DNA from: Chthoniobacteraceae bacterium | GTDB lineage: Bacteria; Verrucomicrobiota; Verrucomicrobiia; Chthoniobacterales; Chthoniobacteraceae | NCBI GenBank assembly: GCA_947476045.1 | Contig: CANJNZ010000008.1 | Coordinates: forward strand, 1 to 64,000 | DNA: 64,000 bases | Direction: 5' to 3' | Shown: piece by piece, positions 6,151 to 23,816 of the stretch | Layout: each line of letters begins with the position of its first letter | Position numbering within the stretch: position 1 is the stretch's first letter | Translations under genes and position numbers: made by a program | Notes under the pieces: generated by a model | The model's database searches: none | The model's input: the letters and a program-made list of their open reading frames with translations, nothing else | What the model was told of the DNA's origin: nothing

Positions 6151-6338
6151 CACCGAAAGTTCTTTTTTCAATTCCAAATGGTCATGGCAAAAGCGCGTTT
6201 GTTTCATGCCTTGTGAAATTTTTCACAAAGTCCTTGCATGGTTGGAAAGTTTTTTGGTAAATCGCAATTCTCCTTGCAAAAATTGCGTGTCCAAACCGCT
6301 TTGAAGATCGCCTTTCTCCACTTTCTGACCTGACGAAT

Positions 6339-7013
6339 ATGCCGCAGATATTTCCGCGCGGGGCGAATTTCGTCCCACTGAAAATCATACTCGTGCTTGC
6401 CACGCTCGGCATCGCTGCGCCTGCGGCGATGTGGTATTACTGGACGCCGAAATACACGAAGGTCGGCTATCAGCCCGCTCAGCCGATTCCATTTTCCCAC
6501 AAGGTGCACGCCGGGCAGCTCGGTCTGGACTGCCGCTATTGCCACAGCTTCGTGGAGACTGCGGCGCACTCGAATATCCCGGCGGCGCAAGTCTGCATGA
6601 ACTGCCACTCGCAGGTGCAGAAGGATAATCCGAAACTCGCGCCGCTGCGTGAGGCTTGGGCGACTGGCAAGCCGGTGGAGTGGGTGCAGATTCACAAGAC
6701 GCCGGATCACGCTTATTTCAATCACTCGGTGCACATCAACCGCGGCGTTTCGTGCGTGAGTTGCCACGGTCGCGTGGATCAAATGGATGTGGTGGTCCAG
6801 GATCAGTCGCTCTCCATGGACTGGTGCCTCACCTGCCACCGTGCGCCGGAGAATGCGCTACGTCCTTTGGATAAAGTGACGGACCTCGGCTGGCACGCGA
6901 CGCCGAAGGGCAAGGAATCAATCGAGCAGGCTCAGGAAAATCTGGGCAAAGAACTCCAAAAACAGCGGGGAGTAAATCCGCCTGTAAGCAATTGCGCTGG
7001 TTGTCACCGATGA
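6339..7013 (+). CDS. actA: Alternative complex III subunit ActA, pentaheme cytochrome c
   Basis: Five CXXCH motifs (CRYCH, CMNCH, CVSCH, CLTCH, CAGCH), one N-terminal TM; first gene of a complete act operon. Confidence 0.92.
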   Translation: MPQIFPRGANFVPLKIILVLATLGIAAPAAMWYYWTPKYTKVGYQPAQPIPFSHKVHAGQLGLDCRYCHSFVETAAHSNIPAAQVCMNCHSQVQKDNPKLAPLREAWATGKPVEWVQIHKTPDHAYFNHSVHINRGVSCVSCHGRVDQMDVVVQDQSLSMDWCLTCHRAPENALRPLDKVTDLGWHATPKGKESIEQAQENLGKELQKQRGVNPPVSNCAGCHR

Positions 7014-10000
7014 GCAAACACGTTTTCCAACATCCGCAGGAGAAGGGCGATGGCCCGAAGTATTGGCGTAGCCTTGGTCAGTTGGCGGAGACGCCGGACT
7101 TCCAGAACTGGAAGGACAAGGAGTTTCAGACCGGTGCGTCTGAGCTGAACCCCGAAGTGGGTCGCCGGAGCTTTTTGAAATACATGGCTGCGAGTTCGGC
7201 GCTGGCGGGTCTTTCGCTGAGTGCCTGCCGCCGCGAGGAGAAGACGCTGGTGCCTTTCACGAAGGGCGTGGAGTGGAGTGTTCCCGGTAAGCCGGTTTTC
7301 TATGCAACGTCGCGTCCGCATCGCCGTGGGGCGCATCCGCTGGTGGCGGTGACGCATGATGGTCGTCCGACGAAGGTAGAGGGCAATCCGAATCACGCAG
7401 CGAGCAAGGGTGCGACCGATATTCAGAGCCAGGCATCGCTGCTCGATTTGTATGACCCGGATCGCTCGCGTCGCTTCCAGCACGATGGCGTCGAGGCGAA
7501 GGAAGAAGATTTTACGAAGTGGCTTGGCGAAGTAATCGCGAAGGCTGGTGATGGTGCAGGAATCGCGTTTCTCTCGGAGCATTTCATGTCGCCGTCATTC
7601 GGGCGATTGAAGGGTGTTGTTTCGGAAAAGCTGCCTAATGCAATCTGGGCGACCTACGAACCACTCGGCGGAAGTGAAGCGCGCAAGGCGTGTGAGGCGA
7701 GCTTTGGCGAAGGAATGCGCGCAGTGCCGCAACTCGACAAGGCGGACGTGATTCTCGCGCTCGACAGCGATTTCCTCGGTTTCGATGAGGGACGACTCGA
7801 AGGCATCCGTGCATTTTCAAAGCGCCGCTCGCCGGAGCAGAAGATGAACCGCCTTTACGTCGTGGAGAATCGCTACACGACCACCGGTGGCATGGCTGAC
7901 CATCGCTTGCGTGTGCAGGCGAAGATGGTGGCCAATGTAACGCGCCAACTCGCTGAAATCATCGCGGGCAAGACCAATGACGAAGGGCTGAAGTCGCTCG
8001 TTGCGAAGTTCCCGAAGACGTCTGCATTCACCGGCACTCAGGAGAAGTGGATCGCGGAGACCGCTGAAGATTTGATGGCGAACAAGGCCAAGTCCGTCGT
8101 TCTCGTCGGCTATCGTCAGCCCGCGCAAGTGCAGGCGCTCGGCCACGCAATCAACGCAGCGCTCGGCAATCTCGGCGAGACCGTTGTCGGACGGAAGAGT
8201 ATGCATGGCAAGTTAGCCAGCATCGGTGAGTTGGCGAAAGCCATCGGCGAGAAAACGGTGAAGACGCTGTTCATCCTCGGCGGCAATCCAGTTTACAACG
8301 CGCCTGCGGATTTGAATTTTGGCGACTTGGTCAAAGGGATCGAAGTCGTGCGTCACGGTTTCTATGAAGACGAAACGACCTATTCGTTCGACGAAAAAGG
8401 CGCGCGTCATTTCGTGAAATGGCACGTTCCTGCTGCGCACTATCTCGAAGCATGGGGCGATGGTCGCGCGAGCGATGGCAGCTACGTTTCGCAGCAGCCG
8501 ATGATTCTTCCGCTCTTCGGTGGTTGGTCGGAAATCCAGCTCCTCAATTTCATCGCCACGGGCAAGAAGAGCGACGGCCTCGATCTCGTGCAGGATACTT
8601 TCAAAGAAGTCGCCAAGGGAATTGACACGGAGTCGTGGGCGAAATTCCTCCACGACGGATTCCTCGCGGCCAGCGCAGCGCAGGCTGAGACTCTCAGCTT
8701 CAATGCGACGAATGCGGCGGATTTGGTGGCCAGCTACAAAGCTCCTGCAGACGGCTACGAAGTGGTTTTTGCGCCATGCGCAAAAGTGGACGACGGCCGC
8801 TATTCGAACAACGCATGGCTGCAAGAGTTGCCTGATCCGATCACGAAAGTCACGTGGGACAACGCCGCACTCATCAGCCCGGCGACCGCCAAGAAGCTCG
8901 GAATGGAAGCCAAGCTGGGCAATGGTCACTTTGATTTCGACAATGGCACTTGGATCACCATCGAGGTGAACAAGGCAAAGCTGGAAATTCCCGTCTATAT
9001 CGCGCCGGGACATGCCGACGATAGCATTACCATCGCACTCGGTTACGGTCACACGCACGAAGGTCGCGTGGGCGGACGCGAGGGGAACTACATGTCGCAC
9101 GGTGGACTGTTCGCGAAGAAGAGTCAGGTCGGCTTCAATGCCTATCCGCTGCGCACGAGCGAGGCTCACTACATCGCCGGTGGGGCGGAAGTGAAAAAGC
9201 TGTCGAAGAGCGCCTATCAGCTCGCAATCACGCAGGAGCACGGCGCACTCGAAGGACGCGGCGCGGATGTCATTCGCGAGGCGACTGCCGAGACATACGC
9301 CGACGAAAAAGACTTTGCGCGCGACGAGCACTGGCTACACAAGCATCACGCGATGGACGCGGAAGCCGAGGAGCGCGACCGCAACAAATATCCCGTTTCG
9401 CGCAGCGCGTATTCACATCCCGAACTGAACGACAAGAATCATCAGTGGGCGATGGCGATTGATCTTTCGACATGCCTCGGCTGCTCCGCGTGCATGGTCG
9501 CCTGCCAGAGCGAAAACAACATTCCCGTTGTCGGCAAAGAGCAGGTGATTGATGGCCGCGAACTCCACTGGATTCGCATGGATCGCTATTTCGTCAGCAC
9601 GATGAACTCGCGCGACAAGGATGTGAGCATTGACGAGCCGCGCATGGTGAACCAGCCGATGCCCTGCCAGCATTGTGAAAACGCCCCGTGCGAAACGGTC
9701 TGCCCCGTGAATGCGACCGTCCACAGCGATGACGGCCTCAACGTGATGGCTTACAACCGCTGCATCGGCACGCGTTACTGCGCGAATAACTGCCCGTTCA
9801 AGGTGCGTCGCTTCAACTTCTTCGACTTCAACGAGCGCCAGAAAGACAAGTATTTTGTCCCGAATATCATCAACGAAAAAGGCATGGCCGACACGTTGAA
9901 GATGTCGAAAAACCCGAACGTCACCGTTCGTATGCGCGGCGTCATGGAAAAATGCACTTTCTGCGTGCAGCGCGTGCAGGAGGCGAAAATCGCATCCAAG

Positions 10001-10300
10001 GTGCGTGCGAAGGACACCGACAAAGTCCAGGTGCCGACCGACAGCTTCCAGGTCGCCTGTCAGCAGGTCTGCCCGACAGACGCCATCGTCTTCGGCAACC
10101 TCAACGACAAGAACAGCCGCATGTCAAAAATCCGCGGCACCGAAGGAAACGTTGCACATCCACGCGACTACCGCCTCTTTGACTACATCGGCATCAAGCC
10201 GCGCGTGAGCTACCTCGCTCGCGTGATGAACCCAAATCACAAAATGCCTGACGTTCCCAAAGACTGGGCAGGTGCCCATAAAGAAGGAGGGCACGCCTAA
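7010..10300 (+). CDS. actB: Alternative complex III subunit ActB, Tat-exported molybdopterin-like/Fe-S protein
   Basis: [22 protein letters not shown] Tat-like signal; molybdopterin-oxidoreductase-like N-part; C-terminal ferredoxin-like [41 protein letters not shown]...CQQVCP clusters. Confidence 0.94.
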
Positions 10301-11769
10301 TGGCTGACATCGCACACACATCAAAGGGCGACGAATGCGAAGTAGTCCTGCACTGCCCGCCGGAACTGAAAAAGATTCCGTTGGTCAATCATGACCGCTC
10401 CTTCGCTTGGATTACCGAAAACGTCGCGAGCATCTGCGAGGAAAAGACACGCCGATATTGGTGGATCGCATTCTTTCCTCTCGCACTGATCGCACTGCTA
10501 GTTCCGACTTTGCTTTCCTATCAGGTCGCAAACGGCGTTGGCGTCTGGGGTGAAAACCAGCCGTTTGGCTGGGCTTGGGACATCACGAATTTCGTTTTCT
10601 GGATCGGCATCGGCCATGCCGGAACTCTGATTTCGGCGATCCTTTTTCTCACCCGGCAAAAGTGGCGCACTTCGATCAATCGCGCGGCTGAAGCCATGAC
10701 GCTTTTTGCCGTGATGTGCGCCGCGCTCTATCCGGGCTTCCATGTCGGTCGTTTTTGGAAGGCGTGGTATCTGTTCCCGATTCCGAACCACATGGCGCTT
10801 TGGCAAAACTATCGCTCGCCACTGCTGTGGGACGTGTTCGCTGTTTCGACCTATTTCACGGTGTCGGTGCTGTTCTGGTATGTAGGCCTCATTCCCGACC
10901 TCGCCACGCTCCGTGACCGCGCAAAATCGAAAATCAAGCAATGGGGCTACGGCCTTGCGGCACTCGGCTGGCGCGGTGGCAACCGCCACTGGCAGCACTA
11001 TGAGATGGCGTATTTGATTCTCGCCGGTCTCAGCACGCCGCTCGTGTTGTCCGTTCACTCCATCGTCTCCTTCGACTTCGCAACTTCGGTCATCCCCGGA
11101 TGGCACACCACGATTTTCCCCCCGTATTTCGTCGCGGGTGCAATCTTCGGCGGCTTCGCCATGGTGCTCACGCTCATGCTACCGGCGCGGCTTTTCTATC
11201 CGCAACTTGATGACATGATCACGCGGAACCATGTGGACAAGATGGCCAAGATCATCCTGCTCACTGGCAGCATCGTCGGCTACGCCTACCTCATGGAGTT
11301 GTTCGTGGCGCTCGTTTACTCGGGCAATTTCTACGAATACAACGCGTTCTACAATCGTGCGACGGGATGGTATTCATGGCACTACGCAATGATGATGTTC
11401 TGCAACGTCATTGCTCCGCAGGTTTTCTGGTCCAAGAGAATCCGCCACAATTACATTTGCGTATTTTTCATCTGCCAACTCGTGAACGCGGGTATGTGGT
11501 ATGAGCGTTTTGTGATTATCGGCACCACGCTGGCGCAGGACTTCCTGCCTTCCTCGTGGGGACACTACACGCCGTCGTGGGTGGAGGTATTCACCTTCAT
11601 CGGCACGTTCGGGATGTTCATATCGCTCTTCCTCTTGTTCATGCGTTTCCTTCCGATGATTACCATCTTCGAAGTCAAAGCGGTGAAGCCCGAGGCCGAC
11701 CCGCATCACGAACCTGATCATTCGCACGGCGAAAAATCCGCGCACCCGAAGGAGGCGGCTGTTCACTAG
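10300..11769 (+). CDS. actC: Alternative complex III subunit ActC, NrfD/PsrC-like quinol-binding membrane protein
   Basis: About 10 TM NrfD-like protein in act operon order; ATG overlaps the actB stop. Confidence 0.92.
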
Positions 11770-11771
11770 TC

Positions 11772-12338
11772 ATGGCTGAATCTTTCAAACGTCTTCATGC
11801 AATCGGTGCGGAGTTCGACACGACTTCCGCCATCTACCACGCTGCGGAGAAAGTCCGTGACGCCGGTTACACCAATTGGGATTGCCACACGCCATTCCCC
11901 GTTCACGGGATGGACAAGGCGATGGGCATGAAAAAATCATGGCTCAGCGCGTTCGTCTTTGCCTGCGGCCTCACGGGTTTCATCACCGGGCTTTTGCTCG
12001 TCACCGTCACTTCGTTCGGGCTTTACCCGACCATCGTGAACGGCAAACCGAACGACTGGACTCATGGTGCCGGAGCGATGCAGTTCTTCTTCCCGGTCAT
12101 GTATGAGTTGACGATTTTGTTCAGCGCTTTCGGAGCGGTCTTCGGCATGATCATTCGCAACGGCCTTCCGAAATTCCATCATCCGCTCTTTAACTGGAGC
12201 CGCTTCGCCAAAGCCACGGACGACAAATTCTTCATTATCATCGAGAGCAGCGACCCCATGTTCTCGGAGACGAAAACCAAGGCTTTCCTCGACAGCCTTG
12301 GCGGCAAACACATCACACCTGTCTTCGACCACGAGTAA
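11772..12338 (+). CDS. actD: Alternative complex III subunit ActD (DUF3341)
   Basis: DUF3341-like sequence with two TMs, operon position. Confidence 0.9.
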   Translation: MAESFKRLHAIGAEFDTTSAIYHAAEKVRDAGYTNWDCHTPFPVHGMDKAMGMKKSWLSAFVFACGLTGFITGLLLVTVTSFGLYPTIVNGKPNDWTHGAGAMQFFFPVMYELTILFSAFGAVFGMIIRNGLPKFHHPLFNWSRFAKATDDKFFIIIESSDPMFSETKTKAFLDSLGGKHITPVFDHE

Positions 12339-12341
12339 GCC

Positions 12342-13028
12342 ATGATGAAAATTTCATTCGGAGCTTTGACTATCGTAGGCGTTCTCGCCCTTGGTTTCGC
12401 GGGCTTTCGCGGCGCTAAGACGGAATTGACCCACGTTGAGTGGTTCAACGACATGGCGCATCAGCCAAAGGAACAACCGCAGCACCACAGCACGTTCTTT
12501 AGCGACGGGCGTTCTGCCCGCCAGCCTGTGGCTGGAACGGTGCCGATTGGTTTCAATTTGGAAGGCCGCTATTTTCAGAGCGAGGGAAACAATCTGGTGG
12601 ATGGCCACGGTGGCTTTGCAAACCAACCCGACTATTTCAACACGGGGCGCATGGGCGATGTGTATGGCGACGGGATTCCCGAAGTTCTCGCAAAACGCGG
12701 AGCCGAGTTGCTCAGCCGTGGCCAGGAGCGCTACGATATCAGTTGCGCAATATGCCATGGAAAAGCAGGGCAGGGGAACGGTCCGGTCAAGGCGTTTGGC
12801 TTGATGACTATTCGCGCACTCACCGACGAGCCTCTCCGTGCGCAGTCGGATGGACAAATTTTCAACACCATCACCCACGGCAAAAGCACGATGGGTGCAT
12901 ACGGGCCTGTGATTGCCGTCGAGGATCGTTGGGCGATTGTTGCCTACGTCCGTGCACTGCAAAAAGTGGCCGAGGGAAAACTCGCAGCCGTTGCTGCCGA
13001 AACCAAACCTGCTGAAGCGAAGAAATGA
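12342..13028 (+). CDS. actE: Alternative complex III subunit ActE, monoheme cytochrome c
   Basis: CAICHGKAGQGNGPV heme site; MAHQPKEQPQHHSTFFSDGRSARQPVAGTV typical of ActE. Confidence 0.9.
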   Translation: MMKISFGALTIVGVLALGFAGFRGAKTELTHVEWFNDMAHQPKEQPQHHSTFFSDGRSARQPVAGTVPIGFNLEGRYFQSEGNNLVDGHGGFANQPDYFNTGRMGDVYGDGIPEVLAKRGAELLSRGQERYDISCAICHGKAGQGNGPVKAFGLMTIRALTDEPLRAQSDGQIFNTITHGKSTMGAYGPVIAVEDRWAIVAYVRALQKVAEGKLAAVAAETKPAEAKK

Positions 13029-14221
13029 GCGACCACCATCACATTCCACAGGCGGAAAAATTTGACGCCAAGAAGGGCGCAAAGCTCAAGGGCTTGTTCC
13101 TTGGTGCAGCAGGCGTTGGACTTGTCGGGGCGGGTGCAACTTTTGTCATGAGCCCAACGCTTGGTGCTCACGCCTGGCTGTTTGCATTCTTCTATTTCTT
13201 CACCGTGCTGGTCGGTTGCTTCTTCTGGAACTGCCTGCATCACGCCACGGATTCCGAGTGGTCGGTCGTCGTGCGCCGTCAGATCGAAAATCTCGCCTCG
13301 CTTCTCAAATACATCGGTGTGTTTTTCATCCCGATCGCGCTTTGCACAACGATTCTTTACGCGTGGTTCACAGCTGACCCGAAGACAGACATCCTTCTCG
13401 CGGGGACCAAGAGCGCCTATCTGAACAAACCGTTTTTCTGGGCGCGTGCGCTCGCGTTTTTCGGCCTGCTTTTCCTCCTGCCAAATATCCTGCGTAAACG
13501 CAGCATGGCGCAGGACAAGGACGGTGCCGCATCACATACCTTTACGATGCGTAAAGCGGCGATTGCCGGAATTCCCACGCTCGCAATCTGCCTCACCTTT
13601 GCTGGTATTGACTGGCTGAAGGCGCTCAATCACCACTGGTATTCCACCATGTGGGGCGTGTATCTTTTCGCCGGCGCGGCGGGTGCCTCGATGGCGCTGA
13701 TCGTTCTGACCTGTAAATGGCTCCAGAGTCAGGGCTATCTGAAGCCAGTCACCGAGGAGCACTATCATTTGATGGGCAAATTTCTCTTCGCCTTCACGGT
13801 GTTCTGGGCCTACATCGGCTTCTCGCAATACATGCTCATCACCTACGCGAACATTGATGAGGAAACGATTTACTTCCGCGTTCGCAACACCGGCAGTTGG
13901 AACTATCTCAGCATGTTCCTCGTTTTTGGACGCTTCTTCTTCATGTTCGTCCCGCTCCTTTTCCAAGGGCTGAAAAAATCACGTGGCATCATCTTCTGTG
14001 CGTCGTGGATTCTGTTCATGCAGTTCGTCGATTTGTTCATCATCATCATGCCCGAGGTTAGTCCCAATGGATTCTCCTTCGCTGGTTTGATTGCCACGAT
14101 ATTCCCATGGCTCGGTATCGCCGGTTGCCTCGGCCTGCTTTTCCTCAAACACCTCGGTCAAGCCTGCGTCTTCCCGACTAAGGATCCGCGTCTCGCCGAA
14201 TCGCTCAAATTTACGAACTGA
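13025..14221 (+). CDS. actF: Alternative complex III subunit ActF, NrfD-like membrane protein
   Basis: Multi-TM ActF-like protein, operon position, 4 bp overlap with actE. Confidence 0.9.
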   Translation: MSDHHHIPQAEKFDAKKGAKLKGLFLGAAGVGLVGAGATFVMSPTLGAHAWLFAFFYFFTVLVGCFFWNCLHHATDSEWSVVVRRQIENLASLLKYIGVFFIPIALCTTILYAWFTADPKTDILLAGTKSAYLNKPFFWARALAFFGLLFLLPNILRKRSMAQDKDGAASHTFTMRKAAIAGIPTLAICLTFAGIDWLKALNHHWYSTMWGVYLFAGAAGASMALIVLTCKWLQSQGYLKPVTEEHYHLMGKFLFAFTVFWAYIGFSQYMLITYANIDEETIYFRVRNTGSWNYLSMFLVFGRFFFMFVPLLFQGLKKSRGIIFCASWILFMQFVDLFIIIMPEVSPNGFSFAGLIATIFPWLGIAGCLGLLFLKHLGQACVFPTKDPRLAESLKFTN

Positions 14222-14222
14222 T

Positions 14223-14912
14223 ATGAGTCACAGCGTTACAACACCCGGAGGATTTTTCATCGGACTCGGCGGCATCGCCCTGTCTCTCGTCGTGGTCGGA
14301 GCTGTTTACTCTTTGGTGAAATCGCCCGAACTTGGCGATGAGTTGAAACCGCAGCAAATCTCGCTCGGCCTCGCGCCAGCGGCAGACTCAACCGGCGATG
14401 CACGCAACGCGAAGAATGAAGAAGTGAGCAAGCTTCTCACGACTGCAGGAGCGAAATATAACGGCGGAGCAAAGCCGAACATCAACAAACTCGACGACCT
14501 TCGTGGAGTAGTGCGTTACCGCGAAGCGCAGAAATCCATCGCTGACGCCGAAAAGGTTCTTGGCGCTCCATCAAGCTTGAAAGCAGCCGACGGCAAGACT
14601 CTTTCTGTGCTGGCTGCAGCTATGCAGGATGTCGAAAAGAACATCGCAGCAAAGAAACCTGCACCTAGTGCGGTCAAAGTGGACATCGCACCACCCGCAG
14701 AGCCTACCATGCCGCCACCCATGCCGAACGTGCAAAGCGGTGGAGCGAATACCGTGATTTTTTCCGCACCAGCCGAAAAGAAAGCTGAAGCTCCAAAGAG
14801 CGCAGAGCCTGAAAAGCCCGCTGCTGCACCTGAGCCAAAGAAATCAGCCGCGTTGGGCGCAACGATTTCCGGATTTGCATCGAACAGTTCTACAATTGGT
14901 CTGAACCGCTGA
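14223..14912 (+). CDS. Hypothetical single-TM protein with Ala/Pro/Lys-rich exported domain
   Basis: TM near N-terminus (GGIALSLVVVGAVYSLV), low-complexity C-terminal half; tightly packed between actF and the ccoN-like gene. Confidence 0.7.
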   Translation: MSHSVTTPGGFFIGLGGIALSLVVVGAVYSLVKSPELGDELKPQQISLGLAPAADSTGDARNAKNEEVSKLLTTAGAKYNGGAKPNINKLDDLRGVVRYREAQKSIADAEKVLGAPSSLKAADGKTLSVLAAAMQDVEKNIAAKKPAPSAVKVDIAPPAEPTMPPPMPNVQSGGANTVIFSAPAEKKAEAPKSAEPEKPAAAPEPKKSAALGATISGFASNSSTIGLNR

Positions 14913-14913
14913 A

Positions 14914-16491
14914 ATGACCACGACACAACATACATTACTTTCCACCTCGCTCGGCACGGCAGCGCCATCGAAGCAGCCCACGAAGCCTGCTGCATCTGCA
15001 CCGTCGCCAGCGAAATCAGCAGCGCCACAGCAGGTCACACAGCGCGACATCGAAAACGTCGAGCGCGCGCTCATTGATCAATCCGCGCGCGGCCCAGTGC
15101 TCACATTTTTCACGACCGGTATTTTCTGGCTGCTCGTTTCCGTGGTGCTCGGCTTCATCGCTTCGAAAAAACTACACGTTCCCGAGTATCACAGCTCACA
15201 CAGTTGGATGACCTACGGGCGTGTCTGGCCCGCCTACACGACAGCGCTCATCTACGGCTGGTGCTCGCTTGCTGGCATGGGCGTTGCAACCTGGCTCATC
15301 GGGCGTCTGACTCGCGTGGCCATCCAAGCACCGGGAATCTTGCAATGGGGCGCATGGTTCTGGAATGCCGGTGTAGCAGCAGGGGTGATTACGATTCTAG
15401 GCGGCTACAACTCCGGGCTGGAATATTTTGAAATGCATCCCGCCGCGAAGCTGTGCATGTTCATCGGCTTCCTGCTCATCGGAGTCTGGGGCTTGATTTT
15501 ATTCCGCTACAAACGCACGGCGGCTCCTTACATCTCAGTTTCCTATCTTGTTGCGGCATTCCTTTTGTTCCCGCTCTTCTTCGGAAGTGCGGCGGCGCTC
15601 GGCTCAAACACATCAATGACCGGCGTGATGAAAAATGTCGTCAATGCTTGGTATCAGGGCGGACTTTTCAATCTGTGGTTCGGCTGCATCGGCATCGCGG
15701 CGGCGTATTACTTCATCCCGAAAGTCATCAACCGCCCCGTGTATAGCTACAATCTGGCGAACATCGGTTTCTGGTCGTGGGTGTTTCTCGGCGGACTAAC
15801 CGCGATGACCAAACTCAGCGGCGGTCCAGTTCCTGCCTACTTGGTGACCATCAGCGTCGCCGCAAGCATCCTTCTCATCATCCCGATCGTAACGCTTACG
15901 ACCAACTTTGTTCGCACTATGAAGGGACACACCGCAAACATGGCGTATTCGCCGACGCTTCGTTTTGTTTTTGTCGGCACGATTTTCTTCAGCATCGCTG
16001 CTTCGCTCAACGTTCTCTCCGCGCTGCGCTCGGTGGATAGCTACACGCATTTCACACCGTGGGCGCACGGGCAGGTTCACGCGATGGTGCTCGGCTTCTT
16101 CAGCATGGTGATGTTTGGAGCCATCTATTACATCACGCCGCGTCTTGTGGGTTGCGAGTGGTTGTCACGCACGTTCATCAAACTGCACTTCCTCGGCACG
16201 GCTTACGGTGGCGCAACGATTATCGCGCTCTTCCTCATCAGTGGCGTCTTCATGGGCTTCACGCTGAACGAGCCTGCTGCGGTAGAGCAGCCATCAGGCA
16301 CTGCTATATGGAATTTCTTCAACGTTCCGCAGAACGCAGGCTTTTGTAACGCGGTGAAAACCTACATCGGCTATTTCTTCTTCGGCATTGCTCAGTTCAT
16401 CTTCGCAATTCACTTCCTTTTCATGCGTCTGCGCATCGGCCAGCCTGCTGGTGAGCCGACGCTCTTTGCAAACCCAGGGGAGGCTCACTAA
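14914..16491 (+). CDS. cbb3-type oxidase subunit I (CcoN)-like protein lacking most metal ligands
   Basis: Colinear with CcoN (WMTYGRVWPAYTTALIYGW, YYFIPKVINRPVYSYNL, SYTHFTPWAHGQVHAMVLGF) but RPLHT, YGHN, GPHHLHY and GHVH histidines are substituted. Confidence 0.88.
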   Translation: MTTTQHTLLSTSLGTAAPSKQPTKPAASAPSPAKSAAPQQVTQRDIENVERALIDQSARGPVLTFFTTGIFWLLVSVVLGFIASKKLHVPEYHSSHSWMTYGRVWPAYTTALIYGWCSLAGMGVATWLIGRLTRVAIQAPGILQWGAWFWNAGVAAGVITILGGYNSGLEYFEMHPAAKLCMFIGFLLIGVWGLILFRYKRTAAPYISVSYLVAAFLLFPLFFGSAAALGSNTSMTGVMKNVVNAWYQGGLFNLWFGCIGIAAAYYFIPKVINRPVYSYNLANIGFWSWVFLGGLTAMTKLSGGPVPAYLVTISVAASILLIIPIVTLTTNFVRTMKGHTANMAYSPTLRFVFVGTIFFSIAASLNVLSALRSVDSYTHFTPWAHGQVHAMVLGFFSMVMFGAIYYITPRLVGCEWLSRTFIKLHFLGTAYGGATIIALFLISGVFMGFTLNEPAAVEQPSGTAIWNFFNVPQNAGFCNAVKTYIGYFFFGIAQFIFAIHFLFMRLRIGQPAGEPTLFANPGEAH

Positions 16492-17178
16492 ATGGAAAAA
16501 CAGAGCACACTTTTCACCGGAATCTTCGGAGCATTCATCTTCTCTTGCGGAGCGATGGTGCTGCTGCCCAGTAGCCAAATCGGCGCGCTGCAACCTCAGG
16601 TCACATGGGACGAGGGACAAAACTCTCCGAGCGATGTGTATCCCGTTAAACTAGAAAACGCACTCGGTCATCGCCCCGGTCAGGCCGTGTATGTGGAGAA
16701 CGGATGCTTTTACTGCCACACGCAGCAAGTGCGCGACCCGCAGTATGGCCCCGATATGGAGCGGGGATGGGGCGTTCGCCGCACCGTTGCGCGTGATCAC
16801 ATTTTCCAAAGCGTGCCGCTTCTTGGTAGCACGCGTCTCGGTCCCGACTTGACGAATTTCGGCTCCGGCACTTGGCGAAATGAAGCAGCAGATGACAAAA
16901 AAGCTCCTGCCAAACGTGATGCGGCTTGGATTTACAAGCATCTCTACGCGCCCAAGAGCAACTTTTCTGATTCTAACTGCCCGCCCTATCCCTACCTCTT
17001 CGAGCGTAAGGACGTCGGTGGGCAACCCTCGCCCGATGCTGTTGCAGTCGAAGGTAATCACCAGATTGTGCCGACGGCAGACGCGCGAAATCTCGCCAAA
17101 TATCTCCTCTCGCTGAACAGCAGCCACGAATTGAAGGAATCGCCAACGGTTATCAAACCCAAGGAGGCAAAGAAATGA
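16492..17178 (+). CDS. cbb3-type oxidase subunit II (CcoO)-like monoheme cytochrome c
   Basis: YVENGCFYCHTQQVRD heme site, GSTRLGPDLTNFG, NCPPYPYLF; N-terminal TM. Confidence 0.88.
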   Translation: MEKQSTLFTGIFGAFIFSCGAMVLLPSSQIGALQPQVTWDEGQNSPSDVYPVKLENALGHRPGQAVYVENGCFYCHTQQVRDPQYGPDMERGWGVRRTVARDHIFQSVPLLGSTRLGPDLTNFGSGTWRNEAADDKKAPAKRDAAWIYKHLYAPKSNFSDSNCPPYPYLFERKDVGGQPSPDAVAVEGNHQIVPTADARNLAKYLLSLNSSHELKESPTVIKPKEAKK

Positions 17179-18395
17179 GCCAGCCGAACGAAGGACAAAA
17201 TCGTCTCGATTATCAGGAGACAGCGGACATCACCGAAGTCCACGCCAGCATACTGCGCGAACATGCAGAGCCCATTGCGGATTCCATGCCGATCCCTACA
17301 TGGCTCGGCGTGCTTTGTGCAGGTGTGCTTTGCTGGGCGGGAGTATATATCGGGGTGTTCCATGGTGGGTTTAGTTCCAAGATTTACAACGAATACGAGA
17401 GCGGCCCGGCGGCGTTTTTCCCGATACCTGGAGGTCAGCAGAAGGGTGGGGGAGAGACACCCGAGTTGCCTCTACTCGCTTACGGCGAGAAAGTTTACGG
17501 CAACCGCTGCGTCGCCTGCCATCAGGCGAGCGGTTTGGGCGGCAATGGCGTCCCTCCGCTCGACGGTTCGGAATGGGTGGATGGAGCAGAGTATGGCGAG
17601 AAGCGTATCGTCGCTTTGATTCTCAAGGGATTGCAGGGACCCGTGTCCGTGAAAGGCGCGACTTACAATGGACTCATGCCGAACTGGGATGGGCTGAAAG
17701 ATCGCGAAATCGCGGGCGTGATTACCTACATCCGTCAGGCTTGGGGCAACAAAGGCACTGGCGAGTTTACTGAAGCGCAAGTCAAGGCTGCGAAGAAAGA
17801 ATTCATGTCGCAGGCTGCCGCTTGGAAGGTCGAGCAAATCAAAAACATCCCGATCGATGCCAAGCTCGACGGTGGTTCTCCTGCCAAGGCAGATGCACCG
17901 AAAGATGCAGCGCCGGCAGCAGGTGCTCCAAAAGCAGACACCGCGAAGGACGCAGAGACCGCCCCCAGCGCTGGTTCGTATAATCTCAGTGCTTCAATCG
18001 CCGCTGGGAAAACCGTCTATCTGCAAAGCTGCATGGCTTGTCATCAAGCGACCGGCATGGGAGTGCCCGGAGCATTTCCTCCGCTGGGCGGCACTGAATA
18101 CGTGAACGGCGATCAGCGCCGCCTCGTGGCAATCGTGCTCAAGGGTATTCAGGGGGCAATCAAAGTGAACGGCACCGTTTACGCCACCGGGATGCCTAAT
18201 CCGGAACTCACTTTCCCGATTCTTAAAGACGACAAGAACGTTGCAGACGTGCTTAACTACGTGCGCAACAACTTCACCAACAAAAACGACGCCCCGATCA
18301 CACCGGAGTTTGTCGGCAAAGTCCGCAAGGAATTCGCTGATCACGCCGCGCAGTGGACGGAGCAGGAACTTCTCAATTTTCCGCCAGCCAAGTAA
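17175..18395 (+). CDS. Membrane-anchored diheme cytochrome c (CcoP-like)
   Basis: One TM, two CXXCH (CVACH, CMACH) cytochrome c domains; overlaps the ccoO-like stop by 4 bp. Confidence 0.85.
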   Translation: MSQPNEGQNRLDYQETADITEVHASILREHAEPIADSMPIPTWLGVLCAGVLCWAGVYIGVFHGGFSSKIYNEYESGPAAFFPIPGGQQKGGGETPELPLLAYGEKVYGNRCVACHQASGLGGNGVPPLDGSEWVDGAEYGEKRIVALILKGLQGPVSVKGATYNGLMPNWDGLKDREIAGVITYIRQAWGNKGTGEFTEAQVKAAKKEFMSQAAAWKVEQIKNIPIDAKLDGGSPAKADAPKDAAPAAGAPKADTAKDAETAPSAGSYNLSASIAAGKTVYLQSCMACHQATGMGVPGAFPPLGGTEYVNGDQRRLVAIVLKGIQGAIKVNGTVYATGMPNPELTFPILKDDKNVADVLNYVRNNFTNKNDAPITPEFVGKVRKEFADHAAQWTEQELLNFPPAK

Positions 18396-18413
18396 CGATA
18401 GACATTGCATGCC

Positions 18414-18899
18414 ATGAAATACATCGCACTCATCCTCGCATCACTCACCGCCGCCTCATTTGCAGAAGACATTAAAGCGTCAGCAGACCGTGGCAAAATG
18501 GTCTATATGCAAAGCTGCATGGCCTGTCATCAACTCACCGGGGCAGGTATTCCCGGAGCATTTCCACCGCTCGTCAAAACTGAATACGCGATTGGCGATG
18601 CACGCCGTGTTGTGGCTATCACGCTGAAGGGAATTTCAGGCGCTATCACTGTGGAAGGCAAAGTCTATGCGACTGGTATGCCGCAGCCGGATCTCACCTT
18701 CCCGATTCTCAAGGAAGACAAAAACGTTGCAGATGTGTTAAACTACGTGCGCACCAGTTTCGGCAATGATGTCAAAGAAGCCATCACGCCTGAGTTTGTT
18801 GCTGAAGTGCGCAAAGAATTTGCAGAACGCAAAACCCAGTGGACGGAGGCCGAGTTGAAGGCATTTCCCGCCAAAGCAGCCGCCACTGAAGCAAAGTAA
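18414..18899 (+). CDS. Monoheme cytochrome c, exported
   Basis: Signal peptide and CMACHQLTGAGIPGAFPPL; paralog of the second heme domain of the preceding gene. Confidence 0.85.
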   Translation: MKYIALILASLTAASFAEDIKASADRGKMVYMQSCMACHQLTGAGIPGAFPPLVKTEYAIGDARRVVAITLKGISGAITVEGKVYATGMPQPDLTFPILKEDKNVADVLNYVRTSFGNDVKEAITPEFVAEVRKEFAERKTQWTEAELKAFPAKAAATEAK

Positions 18900-18953
18900 A
18901 CTTTTAGTGCGCCAAAAGACCGGCGCGAATTGATTAAGAATATACAAAACTTT

Positions 18954-20900
18954 ATGGCCCACGCCGCAGACCACGAAAAAGACGCCCACGGCCACGACGA
19001 CCACGCGCACCACGACCCCGGCTTCTGGAAAAAGTGGGTGTTCACGACTGATCACAAAATGATCGGTATTCAGTATGCCGTCACCGGACTCGCATTCCTA
19101 CTTTTTGGTTTCGGTTTGATGATGGTCATGCGCTGGAGCATCGCCCACGGCGCGGCTCCACTGCCAAACGCGCTCGGCGGTATGTTGCACGCGTTCTTTG
19201 GGGATGATGTCTTCAAGTGGACCGAGGTCGTGAAAGACGGCGTCGTGACCGCCAAGGGTTGGGCGCTCACTCAGACCGGCTACAATGTTTTCGGTGCAAT
19301 GCACGGCACTATCATGGTGTTCTTTGGTATCGTGCCCATCGCCTTCGCTGGCTTCGGAAACTTCGTCATGCCGCTGCAAATCGGCGCGATTGATATGGCA
19401 TTTCCCCGGATCAACATGGCCAGCTTTTGGAGCTTCTTCATCAGCTGTATTTTCATGATTTGGAGCTTCTTCGTTCCGGGAAGTGCTGCGCAGTCCGGCT
19501 GGACCAACTATCCACCGCTCGCGGGTGCTGCAAATATGCCGGGCAGTCTTTCTGCCAGCGGTGAATTGCTCGGACACTGGACGAATGGTGGAACGCTCTG
19601 GCTGTTGGGCATGGTGTTCAATATCACCTCCTCGCTGCTCGGCTCGGTGAACTTCATCACCACGATTGTCCAGCTTCGTGCTCCGGGCATGACTTGGGGG
19701 CGTCTGCCGTTTTTCTGCTGGGCACAGTTCATCACCGCCTACTTGCTGCTCCTCGCTTTCCCTCCGCTGGAATCTGCCGCAGTCATGAACCTCTTTGACC
19801 GTGTATTCGGTTCGAGCTTCTTCATGCCGTCTGGTCTGAATATCACGCTCATTCACGATGCGGCGGGAAATGTTCCGACGTATTCCGGCGGTGGTTCACC
19901 GATTTTGTGGCAGCATCTCTTCTGGTTCCTCGCGCATCCGGAGGTGTATGTGCTCATCCTGCCTGGCATTGGCATGATTACCGAGATCATCGCATGCAAC
20001 ACCCGTAAGCCGATATGGGGCTACAAAGCCATGGTGGGTGCCATCTTCGTCCTCGCGTTCCTGTCCTTCATCGTGTGGGCGCACCACATGTATATGACGG
20101 GCATGGGCCCGAAAGTGTCCGCGTTTTTCCAGACCACCACGATCCTGATTTCGGTGCCTTCGGTCATCCTGCTCACTGCGTTGCTACTTTCGCTGTGGGG
20201 AGGTTCGATTCGATTCAACACGCCGATGCTTTTCGCCACCGCCTTCCTGCCGATGTTTGGTATCGGCGGTCTCACCGGCATCCCGCTCGCGTTTAACGCC
20301 GTGGATCTATACATGCATGACACCTACTATGTGATCGCGCATTTCCACTACGTGATCGCGCCGGGCACCATCTTCGCCATCTTCGCCGGGGTCTATCACT
20401 GGTATCCCAAGGCGACCGGAAGGATGATGAGTGAGTTTCTTGGAAAACTGCATTTCTGGGGATCCCTCATTGCTATCAACTGCTTGTTCGCGCCGATGTT
20501 TATTCAGGGCATGGCTGGTATGCATCGCCGCTGGTATGATGGCGGAGCGGCGGCGTATGTCTCCACGGTTGGACAAAACATGGTGGACTGGAACATCACT
20601 ATCTCCAAAGCCGCATGGTGGCTTGGAGCCATCCAACTCATCTTCGTATTCAACTTCTGCTGGAGCATGATTCGCGGCAGGAAAGTGCCGAGCGATAACC
20701 CATGGCACGCCACGACTCTTGAATGGGATACGCCGACACCACCGCCGCACGGCAACTTCATCAAGGACATCGTCGTCTATCGCGGCCCTTACGAATACAG
20801 CGTCCCCGGTGCGGACAAGGACTACTCGCCGCAATCCGAGCCACCAACCAACACGCCACCGCCAGCTCACGCGCCCGTTGCGGCACCTGCGCACGCCTGA
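18954..20900 (+). CDS. ctaD: Cytochrome c oxidase subunit I (aa3-type)
   Basis: AMHGTIMVFFG, LAHPEVYVLILPG, WAHHMYMTGM, HDTYYVIAHFHYV: all heme/CuB ligands present. Confidence 0.97.
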   Translation: MAHAADHEKDAHGHDDHAHHDPGFWKKWVFTTDHKMIGIQYAVTGLAFLLFGFGLMMVMRWSIAHGAAPLPNALGGMLHAFFGDDVFKWTEVVKDGVVTAKGWALTQTGYNVFGAMHGTIMVFFGIVPIAFAGFGNFVMPLQIGAIDMAFPRINMASFWSFFISCIFMIWSFFVPGSAAQSGWTNYPPLAGAANMPGSLSASGELLGHWTNGGTLWLLGMVFNITSSLLGSVNFITTIVQLRAPGMTWGRLPFFCWAQFITAYLLLLAFPPLESAAVMNLFDRVFGSSFFMPSGLNITLIHDAAGNVPTYSGGGSPILWQHLFWFLAHPEVYVLILPGIGMITEIIACNTRKPIWGYKAMVGAIFVLAFLSFIVWAHHMYMTGMGPKVSAFFQTTTILISVPSVILLTALLLSLWGGSIRFNTPMLFATAFLPMFGIGGLTGIPLAFNAVDLYMHDTYYVIAHFHYVIAPGTIFAIFAGVYHWYPKATGRMMSEFLGKLHFWGSLIAINCLFAPMFIQGMAGMHRRWYDGGAAAYVSTVGQNMVDWNITISKAAWWLGAIQLIFVFNFCWSMIRGRKVPSDNPWHATTLEWDTPTPPPHGNFIKDIVVYRGPYEYSVPGADKDYSPQSEPPTNTPPPAHAPVAAPAHA

Positions 20901-20918: not shown

Positions 20919-22100
20919 ATGGAAATTCCATATACAGTCCGGCCCCGTCCCGATACGGGCCTCAGTAATCCGAAACTCGGCATCTGGCTCTTCCTCGCAT
21001 CGGAAGTGATGCTCTTCGGCGGCCTATTTGCAGGCTACATTTTTATGCGCCTCGGCGCAGAACCTTGGATGTGGCCTCACGGCTGGCTGAACGTTCCAGT
21101 CGGCACATTCAACACATTTGTCCTGATCGCCTCCTCGGTCACCGTCATCCTTTCATGGGAGTCGCTCAAGATGCGGAAATACAAGGCATTCCGCTCCTGG
21201 CTTGCCGCGACATGGATTTGTGGTTTTGCCTTCCTCACCATTAAACTGTCATACGAGTGGCCTGCCAAATTTCACCACTTCGGTGCTTATGTTCAAAAAG
21301 GCGCAGCCCATAAATACGAAGCCATTCTCGGCAACGAAAATCAGGGGGACGTAAAGGGTCACGAGGCGCGAAAAGGTTATCCACGCCTTTTCATTGGCGG
21401 CCACCTCGACACAGAGACCGACAAATTCGCCATGGCTTCGGCAGGTGTTCCGTATGTTCAGGAAGCGGCGCTTGATGGCGTTCTCGCAATCGGGAAAGAC
21501 GAAAACAATCCAGCCAAACTGGCTAATCTGCTCAAAATCAAGGACGCGATGCTCAAGAAGCTTGTGGTGCGTGACGAAGACATCGCGGCGCTGAAGGCAC
21601 CAAATTTGGACCCGCAGAAAAAGGCGACAATCCTCCACAGGATGAACACCATCAGCATCCATGCCGTGGATGCCGAGAACGCCAAGCCCTATGATCCCGA
21701 TAATGACAAGGCACACTTCATGCCCCGTGGTCAGATCGTCATTTCGGAACTCGGCCTGAAGGACAACCCTAACGTCCATGCTGTGAAAAATGCGGAGACT
21801 GGAAAAGAAGATCAGCATTTCATCGTTGATAAACGCGATTTGGTTGCCGGTCACGGGCCACTCATTCCGAAGCTGAATACCTACCTCGCCACCTATTTCA
21901 TGATTACAGGACTGCACGGACTGCACGTTCTCGGCGGCTGCTTGGTTTTCATCTACTTCTGGCTGCCCATCAAAGGCGGCGCGAAGCTTTTCCATACGAA
22001 CCACCAGCAGCTCTGCAACCGCATCGAGGTTTCCGGCCTCTTCTGGCATCTCGTTGACCTTATCTGGATCTTCGTATTCCCGATCTTCTACTTGCTGTAA
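20919..22100 (+). CDS. ctaE: Cytochrome c oxidase subunit III with a large hydrophilic insertion
   Basis: COX3 helices (PKLGIWLFLASEVMLFGGLFAGY; FMITGLHGLHVLGG; FWHLVDLIWIFVFPIFYLL) flank an insertion of roughly 190 aa. Confidence 0.9.
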   Translation: MEIPYTVRPRPDTGLSNPKLGIWLFLASEVMLFGGLFAGYIFMRLGAEPWMWPHGWLNVPVGTFNTFVLIASSVTVILSWESLKMRKYKAFRSWLAATWICGFAFLTIKLSYEWPAKFHHFGAYVQKGAAHKYEAILGNENQGDVKGHEARKGYPRLFIGGHLDTETDKFAMASAGVPYVQEAALDGVLAIGKDENNPAKLANLLKIKDAMLKKLVVRDEDIAALKAPNLDPQKKATILHRMNTISIHAVDAENAKPYDPDNDKAHFMPRGQIVISELGLKDNPNVHAVKNAETGKEDQHFIVDKRDLVAGHGPLIPKLNTYLATYFMITGLHGLHVLGGCLVFIYFWLPIKGGAKLFHTNHQQLCNRIEVSGLFWHLVDLIWIFVFPIFYLL

Positions 22101-22102
22101 CC

Positions 22103-22531
22103 ATGTCCGAACACACCGCCACAAAACCCACTGAGACTCACGGCCATGCACACGATGAGCATTCTCACGAAGAGCACCACGGCTCCATGCTCAGCCATGT
22201 GAAGCCCTACCTCATCATTGGGGCAGCCTTGTTCGTGTTCACGCTCATCACCGTTGGTCTTTCCTATTTCGACTTTGCGGAATACTCACTCTTCCGCAAA
22301 CTTTTCGGCATCATTGGCGTCCACGGAATGGGTATCAACATCACCGTTGGCCTTATCGTCGCAACTTTCAAAGTCTGCCTCGTCGGCGCGTGGTTCATGC
22401 ACTTGAAGCAGGAGGGCAGCACCATTTGGAAGCCACTCGGGCTAACACTCTTCTTCTGCTTTTGCCTGCTCATGCTATTTCTGCTGGCTCACTCGGATCC
22501 AATCCCAAGCACTTCATTCACACAGCACTAA
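22103..22531 (+). CDS. Cytochrome c oxidase subunit IV family protein, His-rich N-terminus
   Basis: Three TMs, small COX4-like protein, HGHAHDEHSHEEHHG leader, operon position. Confidence 0.8.
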   Translation: MSEHTATKPTETHGHAHDEHSHEEHHGSMLSHVKPYLIIGAALFVFTLITVGLSYFDFAEYSLFRKLFGIIGVHGMGINITVGLIVATFKVCLVGAWFMHLKQEGSTIWKPLGLTLFFCFCLLMLFLLAHSDPIPSTSFTQH

Positions 22532-22723: not shown

Positions 22724-22929
22724 GCGCCCGTCTTGTCATCACAGCAGCGCTCGCTGCGGCATTTTCCACCAACGCAAATGCGTGTGCAGTCTGCATGGGA
22801 AGCGACGACGCCAAGACCGCCTACGCTTCCAACTCCGTTCTTTGGTGCCTGCTTGCGCTGGTTGGGTTTATTTTCATCGCAACCGGAGCCACCGCCTATT
22901 TTCTCTGGCACCACAATCGCCTCAAATGA
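22720..22929 (+). CDS. Small exported membrane protein with CAVCMG motif
   Basis: MSARLVITAALAAAFSTNANACAVCMGSDD...TM; overlaps both neighbours by 4 bp. Confidence 0.65.
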   Translation: MSARLVITAALAAAFSTNANACAVCMGSDDAKTAYASNSVLWCLLALVGFIFIATGATAYFLWHHNRLK

Positions 22930-23816
22930 CGAACACCATTATGCTCGCAGCACTGTCTGACTACTTCGATCTGAACAAACTCATGGGGATGCTCCCCAAT
23001 GCCTCGGAGCACGGCAAGGAGATCGACCACATGCTGAACTTCTGCCACTGGTTCATGCTGATCCTATTCGTGGGCTGGTCGTGCTACTTCCTCTACACGA
23101 TCTTCCGCTTCCACCAGTCCCGCAATCCAAAGGCCGACTATCACGGTGTTCGCAATCACGTTTCCACACACATCGAAGTCAGTGTTGTCATTATCGAAGC
23201 CATCATCCTGCTCGGTTTCGGGCTTCCGCTCTGGGGCAAGCGCGTGAATGAAATTCCGCAGGGTGAAAAAACCGACGCGCTGAAGATTCGCGCCATTGGT
23301 TATCAGTTCGGATGGCGCGTGCATTACGCCGGACCGGATGGGAAATTCGGACGTCAAAATACTCGCTTCATCAAGGCGGGCATGAACGATCTCGGTCTCG
23401 ATCCCGAAGACGAAGCAGGCAAGGACGACGCAGTCGTTACTAGCGACATGCACCTCGTCCTCAACAAGGCCACCGTTGTCCGCGTCAGTTCGCTGGATGT
23501 CATCCACGGCTTCGCGCTTCACCAGATGCGCATCCAGCAGGATGCCACACCGGGCACCGAGGCGCCGCAGTGGTTCCGCCCAATTGAAAAGGGAAACTGG
23601 CAAATCATCTGCGCTCAGCTTTGCGGCACCGGTCATCCCGGAATGGTCGCGACCTACAGCGTCGAGGATCAGAAGGATTTCGACGAGTGGTATGCCAGCC
23701 AGCGCGAACTCACACAAAGCAAACTCAAGTCGTATTCGGAAGAGTTGAAGGCCCAGAAGGAAAAGGCCGCTGCTGAGCAAAAAGAGCACGCTGCCGAGCA
23801 CGTAGAAAAACCGTAG
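22926..23816 (+). CDS. ctaC: Cytochrome c oxidase subunit II (CuA)
   Basis: Two TMs; CuA site DVIHGFALHQMRIQQDATPG and CAQLCGTGHPGM. Confidence 0.95.
   Translation: MTNTIMLAALSDYFDLNKLMGMLPNASEHGKEIDHMLNFCHWFMLILFVGWSCYFLYTIFRFHQSRNPKADYHGVRNHVSTHIEVSVVIIEAIILLGFGLPLWGKRVNEIPQGEKTDALKIRAIGYQFGWRVHYAGPDGKFGRQNTRFIKAGMNDLGLDPEDEAGKDDAVVTSDMHLVLNKATVVRVSSLDVIHGFALHQMRIQQDATPGTEAPQWFRPIEKGNWQIICAQLCGTGHPGMVATYSVEDQKDFDEWYASQRELTQSKLKSYSEELKAQKEKAAAEQKEHAAEHVEKP

Follow-up and report, generated by a model that had tools for sequence, protein, structure and literature searches.

In the supercomplexes of Rhodothermus marinus and Flavobacterium johnsoniae, ACIII is linked to its terminal oxidase by an extra c heme, which is carried by CtaC in the ACIII–caa3 supercomplex of the former and by ActA in the ACIII–aa3 supercomplex of the latter (PMC5928083, PMC8552683). 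A cbb3 oxidase beside ACIII has been assigned in Methylacidiphilum kamchatkense Kam1 and tied to high oxygen affinity (PMC6688271), and according to a review, verrucomicrobial methanotrophs and Opitutaceae have cbb3 genes next to those of ACIII (PMC8498564). For Ca. Methylacidithermus pantelleriae PQ17, ACIII and an aa3 oxidase but no cbb3 oxidase were reported (PMC8170126). The locus investigated here lies in a stretch of 64 000 nt from a Chthoniobacteraceae bacterium, which as a whole is called the window. As in the two supercomplexes, an A-family oxidase is encoded behind the ACIII genes and additional cytochrome c would lie between ACIII and CuA; however, the genes predict a CcoN-O-P-like module in this place instead of a heme domain fused to CtaC or ActA. 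The respiratory genes are arranged as follows (evidence in brackets):

6261–7010, + strand: ActA, pentaheme cytochrome c of ACIII (ORF taken from stop to stop, with five CxxCH and without a sixth heme; recurs as the first gene in ACIII clusters)
6992–10300, + strand: ActB (ORF, recurrence in ACIII clusters)
10300–11769, + strand: ActC (ORF, recurrence in ACIII clusters)
11772–12338, + strand: ActD (Pfam PF11821 match in its own genome, C8:11802–12317, E 5.4e-58)
12342–13028, + strand: ActE, monoheme cytochrome c (ORF, heme motif, recurrence)
13025–14221, + strand: ActF (ORF, recurrence in ACIII clusters)
14211–14912: protein without family match, between actF and the CcoN-like gene
14914–16491, + strand: CcoN-like protein, 525 aa (phmmer, 3mk7 alignment, AlphaFold2, Foldseek, Pfam, TIGR00780)
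16492–17178, + strand: CcoO-like monoheme cytochrome c (Pfam FixO 5.9e-14; CxxCH kept as CFYCH; Cys at the axial-Met position)
17175–18395, + strand: CcoP-like cytochrome c with two CxxCH (profile matches, heme motif count)
18405–18899, + strand: small monoheme cytochrome c, CcoP-like (Pfam, heme motif count)
18930–20900, + strand: CtaD, subunit I of the aa3-type oxidase (Pfam COX1 6.8e-127; TIGR02891 1.5e-162)
20919–22100, + strand: CtaE, subunit III (Pfam COX3 2.4e-11)
22103–22531, + strand: CtaF-like, subunit IV (position and recurrence)
22929–23816, + strand: CtaC, subunit II (CuA motif CAQLCGTGHPGM; no CxxCH cytochrome c domain)

As in the known ACIII–oxidase supercomplexes, a complete actABCDEF set precedes an intact A-family oxidase (ctaD-E-F-C; ctaA is also present), and the heme and CuB motifs of CtaD are all retained (MHGTIM, AHPEVY, HHMY and HFHY). 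The extra cytochrome c domain is found neither on CtaC, which has no CxxCH, nor on ActA with its five; separate CcoO/P-like cytochromes are encoded instead. The gene at 14211–14912 recurs within the window genus, and outside it in one other (L174). Elsewhere in its genome (G000:C4) the source organism encodes an ordinary fused CcoNO with all ligands.

The reading frame at 14914–16491 is open and in frame over 525 aa, as the preliminary description of this DNA had claimed. When its product was compared with the PDB sequences by phmmer, the matches were chains of cbb3 subunit I only (best 4.6e-31; Pseudomonas stutzeri CcoN, 3mk7, 1.6e-27), with alignments covering most of the chain length, and Pfam COX1 is matched at 1.8e-40. 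An AlphaFold2 model built with 47 homologues (mean pLDDT 89.5, pTM 0.89) was superposed by Foldseek on 3mk7 over about 466 columns with TM scores of 0.80 (query) and 0.90 (target), in agreement with the colinear fold proposed earlier. In its fold, its colinear sequence and the adjacent CcoO and CcoP homologues (Pfam, gene neighbourhood) the protein therefore resembles CcoN/FixN, subunit I of the cbb3-type (C-family) oxidases, but it is only about 22–23% identical to canonical CcoN/FixN, and its score against the curated NCBIfam ccoN model TIGR00780 (129.9 bits, over most of its length) is below the cut-off of 583.15 bits. It further differs in lacking the ligands of CuB and heme b3 and a complete pair for the low-spin heme. 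At positions 60/207/251/257/258/345/347 of 3mk7 we read Y/G/G/T/K/Q/H, so that six of the seven redox-centre residues are gone: the CuB ligands H207, H257 and H258 are replaced by G, T and K, the heme b3 ligand H345 by Q, the active-site Tyr251 by Gly and the low-spin heme ligand H60 by Y, leaving His347 as the one remaining residue. All substitutions listed in the preliminary description were correct in the 3mk7 alignment; it had also identified the last two residues properly, although the positions that it gave as 347 (Q) and 349 (kept His) are 345 and 347 in 3mk7. Misalignment that would mask histidines was ruled out by phmmer, MAFFT and the fold comparison, which place no histidine at the CuB and heme positions except H347. 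The same losses were found in a 95% identical relative and in the other members of the genus that were read, and since independent genomes carry them, a sequencing error, a frameshift or a recent decay was ruled out as well. The protein has the fold of CcoN without its ligands and, judged from these residues, is almost certainly non-catalytic. In the open-access literature we came across no description of a heme-copper oxidase subunit lacking the catalytic metals and yet conserved in a respiratory gene cluster.

We searched for relatives in named genomes and in 291 genomes of the phylum, and retrieved non-fused proteins of about 470–600 aa. Conservation of the ligand losses in other genomes was evident from 66 distinct ligand-less sequences, which in this sample occur in Verrucomicrobiota only and which lie behind ACIII in all cases with enough upstream sequence; in many clusters of the Opitutaceae type ctaD is not adjacent to the ligand-less gene. 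Another COX1-family gene is present in all 31 ligand-less genomes examined. Full-ligand relatives behind ACIII were observed in Planctomycetota and Verrucomicrobiota, while the relatives in Burkholderiales and Gemmatimonadota are all full-ligand and have no ACIII genes nearby. A search for ligand-less forms in Planctomycetota found none, as all 30 loci read there, fused canonical CcoNO included, are full-ligand. The full-ligand ACIII-linked oxidases (L067, L068, L142, L216 and others) occupy the same slot with the same CcoO/CcoP-like neighbours and are about 33–39% identical to the window protein, but they have all seven redox-centre residues and, unlike the window, usually no adjacent aa3 oxidase. 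According to the preliminary description, homologues with all ligands in the same context would have pointed to sequencing error or recent decay; such homologues do exist, but this reading of them was not borne out, and they look like the ancestral state, the full-ligand oxidase being the presumed ancestral type. In one genome (G001, 99% complete) the full-ligand ACIII-linked gene is the sole COX1-family gene, and the protein is for this reason presumably a working heme-copper oxidase there. At the position of E323 in canonical CcoN, Gln is found in the relatives from Burkholderiales, Gemmatimonadota and most Planctomycetota (L012, L013, L015–L064, L067 and others), and the residue is variable in the full-ligand relatives from Verrucomicrobiota. 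One otherwise full-ligand protein (L114/L131, genome G335) carries H207R (NWWFARN), which may mark the beginning of loss or may be an error in the sequence.

For the number of losses, the trees gave different answers. On the tree of ActB, ActC and ActF the ligand state changes 12 times and all 12 changes are forced by well-supported branches, whereas the tree of the CcoN-like proteins, with the ligand columns removed, needs 4 changes of which at least 3 are forced; both counts include L131 with its single change H207R. These are parsimony counts on unrooted trees, which do not tell loss from gain, and we read the changes as losses from the full-ligand form because a regain of seven specific canonical residues is implausible. 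A single ancient loss was rejected by the AU test with p ~1e-87 for the ACIII data and p = 0.008 for the CcoN-like data (5000 resamplings, below the number recommended for the program), although by the SH test it remained acceptable for the CcoN-like data (p = 0.179). The CcoN-like data also reject the ACIII topology. The CcoO-like tree, consulted as an arbiter, favoured neither, since both topologies were rejected in comparison with the best tree of its own data. The faster evolution of the ligand-less proteins has probably distorted the CcoN-like tree. The clearest case of loss is found inside one genus (g4), in which one genome (G340) has the full-ligand and another (G126) the ligand-less form; their ACIII proteins are 84% identical, but the CcoN-like proteins only 51%. 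We conclude that there were at least two to three losses of the ligands and probably about a dozen. The exact number is uncertain, given the 4 changes that suffice on the CcoN-like tree and its rejection of the ACIII topology.

The CcoO-like partner keeps its CxxCH motif in all of the 54 ligand-less clusters that were aligned. In 16 of these clusters another residue takes the place of its axial Met, in 10 cases Cys, the window included, and a heme in such a protein may have an unusual ligation and possibly an unusual potential. The change to Cys was observed in two separate ligand-less lineages (with the window gene at 16492–17178, L187, L189, L190, L192, L141 and L197 in the replaced set), and Arg, His, Lys or Ala is found in a few other ligand-less clusters. 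The CuA motif is present in every CtaC compared. In clusters that contain both the module and ctaC, the CtaC protein is always without a heme motif (36 of 36 clusters, composed of 35 tabulated ones and L171 with its split CcoN-like gene), whereas a CtaC cytochrome c domain was found in 11 of 12 ACIII clusters without the module, one of them with CxxxCH; the comparison ignores kinship, and the 12 module-free clusters were picked by hand. The domain is also absent in three full-ligand module clusters beside CtaC, so that its absence tracks the module and not the ligand loss. The sole exception among the 12 (G008, by our guess Ca. Methylacidithermus pantelleriae PQ17) has ACIII with adjacent CtaE/F/C and neither the module nor the CtaC cytochrome domain, so that at least one lineage can do without the module. 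Some Verrucomicrobiota have, besides the module-bearing cluster, a second ACIII cluster whose CtaC contains a cytochrome c domain (L209, L210, L211, L212).

Taken together, we consider it probable that a former ACIII-linked cbb3 oxidase has become a non-catalytic scaffold that carries c-type hemes from ACIII to the aa3 oxidase. The original occupant of the slot would have been a functional oxidase of the cbb3-like (C-family) type, CcoN-O-P, that received its electrons from ACIII; the aa3 oxidase would then have taken over oxygen reduction, after which the CcoN-like subunit repeatedly lost its hemes and CuB. It would have been retained as a membrane scaffold holding the c hemes of the CcoO/CcoP type against ACIII and, where an aa3 oxidase is adjacent, against this as well. 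From the gene content we infer a physical complex in which electrons would pass from quinol to ACIII (the FeS clusters of ActB and the hemes of ActA and ActE), to the CcoO/P-like c hemes, to CuA of CtaC and finally to aa3. The CcoO/P-like cytochromes, anchored by the ligand-less protein, would thereby replace the extra c heme of the known supercomplexes. This appears to be the most likely function, building on what could be established at the level of sequence, i.e. ligand loss, fold, gene order, selection, retention of CxxCH and absence of the CtaC cytochrome c domain. A structural or electron-relay subunit between ACIII and aa3 had been suggested from the window alone, and the gene content argues for it: the CxxCH of the CcoO-like partner, the conserved order of ACIII, CcoNOP-like module and aa3, and the adjacent aa3 oxidase having CuA but no cytochrome c domain all fit a relay.

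The CcoN-like protein might instead still hold one low-spin heme b, bound by Tyr60 and His347 in the window genus, and shuttle electrons inside the complex. The combination of Y60 with H347 does recur throughout the window genus, and also in a number of genera related to it (L103, L105, L106, L109, L111), and two genomes (G013 and G168) retain the bis-His pair 60/347 despite the loss of the binuclear centre and the other ligands, a state that looks like a low-spin-only intermediate of ligand loss. However, relatives from the same family have FE, FQ, AA or AS at 60/347, one or both residues are gone in other lineages, and Arg57 and neighbours of His60 are among the positions lost in the ligand-less group. 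We regard a retained heme b as unlikely.

Comparing conserved sites, we found that those conserved in the full-ligand clade only include most of the ligands and many positions nearby in sequence, while 39 other positions are at least 90% conserved in both groups, for example R55, W102, N103, Y223, Y224, P227 and K228 (3mk7 numbering). Scaffold positions thus stay conserved while redox residues decay in a protein under selection, which would also suit an assembly, proton-handling or regulatory subunit with incidental c-type partners; but the heme-c motif of the CcoO-like protein is always retained and clusters with the module lack the cytochrome domain on CtaC, and we think such a role improbable. 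A functionless, decaying remnant that is kept merely by its operon position is far less credible still. The CcoN-like proteins do evolve faster after ligand loss (among pairs whose ACIII is about 0.7 identical, full-ligand CcoN-like proteins have a median identity of 0.78 and ligand-less ones of 0.50), and in one relative (L171, genome G314) the gene is split into two adjacent frames, by assembly error or real decay; yet pairwise dN/dS among the ligand-less proteins is 0.06–0.23, far below 1 in all measurable pairs and in the range of the neighbouring genes, more than 60 sequences have open frames, and the fold predicted for the window protein is of high confidence. By these sequence measures constraint is relaxed but not gone, and the ligand-less proteins evolve under purifying selection. 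The intact fold, this selection and the wide recurrence support the earlier proposal of a selected non-catalytic homolog. It is also very unlikely that the protein has turned into another enzyme, with a new metal centre where the old one was. Several lineages do have polar or basic replacements (Q, K, R, S, N), but the replacing residues are lineage-specific and form no conserved alternative set.

Beyond the single gene described at first, ligand loss is recurrent and touches a published oxidase assignment in verrucomicrobial methanotrophs. The gene of the 'cbb3-type Complex IV' beside ACIII in Methylacidiphilum is homologous to the window gene and located in the same place (L164, L165); it was published as a functional oxidase, but its sequence is ligand-less. 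In the Kam1 gene (L164) we read S, V, E, S, S, H and F at positions 60, 347, 207, 251, 257, 258 and 345, a reading more dependent on the alignment than those in the window genus, as the protein is very divergent and only 24% identical to that of the window. Neither the search for relatives nor the COX1-family search found another C-family gene in the Kam1 genome.

For the phylum, and even for one genus, these genes provide a natural series from a working oxidase through an apparent low-spin-only intermediate to complete loss. The balance of evidence tips slightly towards a third wiring of ACIII to aa3, in which a whole former oxidase, stripped about a dozen times in one bacterial lineage, would be reused as a scaffold for a heme-c relay, and hence the 'high-affinity cbb3 oxidase' beside ACIII in Methylacidiphilum would not be an oxidase. 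For annotation in this group it follows that microaerobic respiration should not be deduced from a 'cbb3' gene next to ACIII, and the published oxidase inference for Methylacidiphilum becomes testable in a culturable organism.
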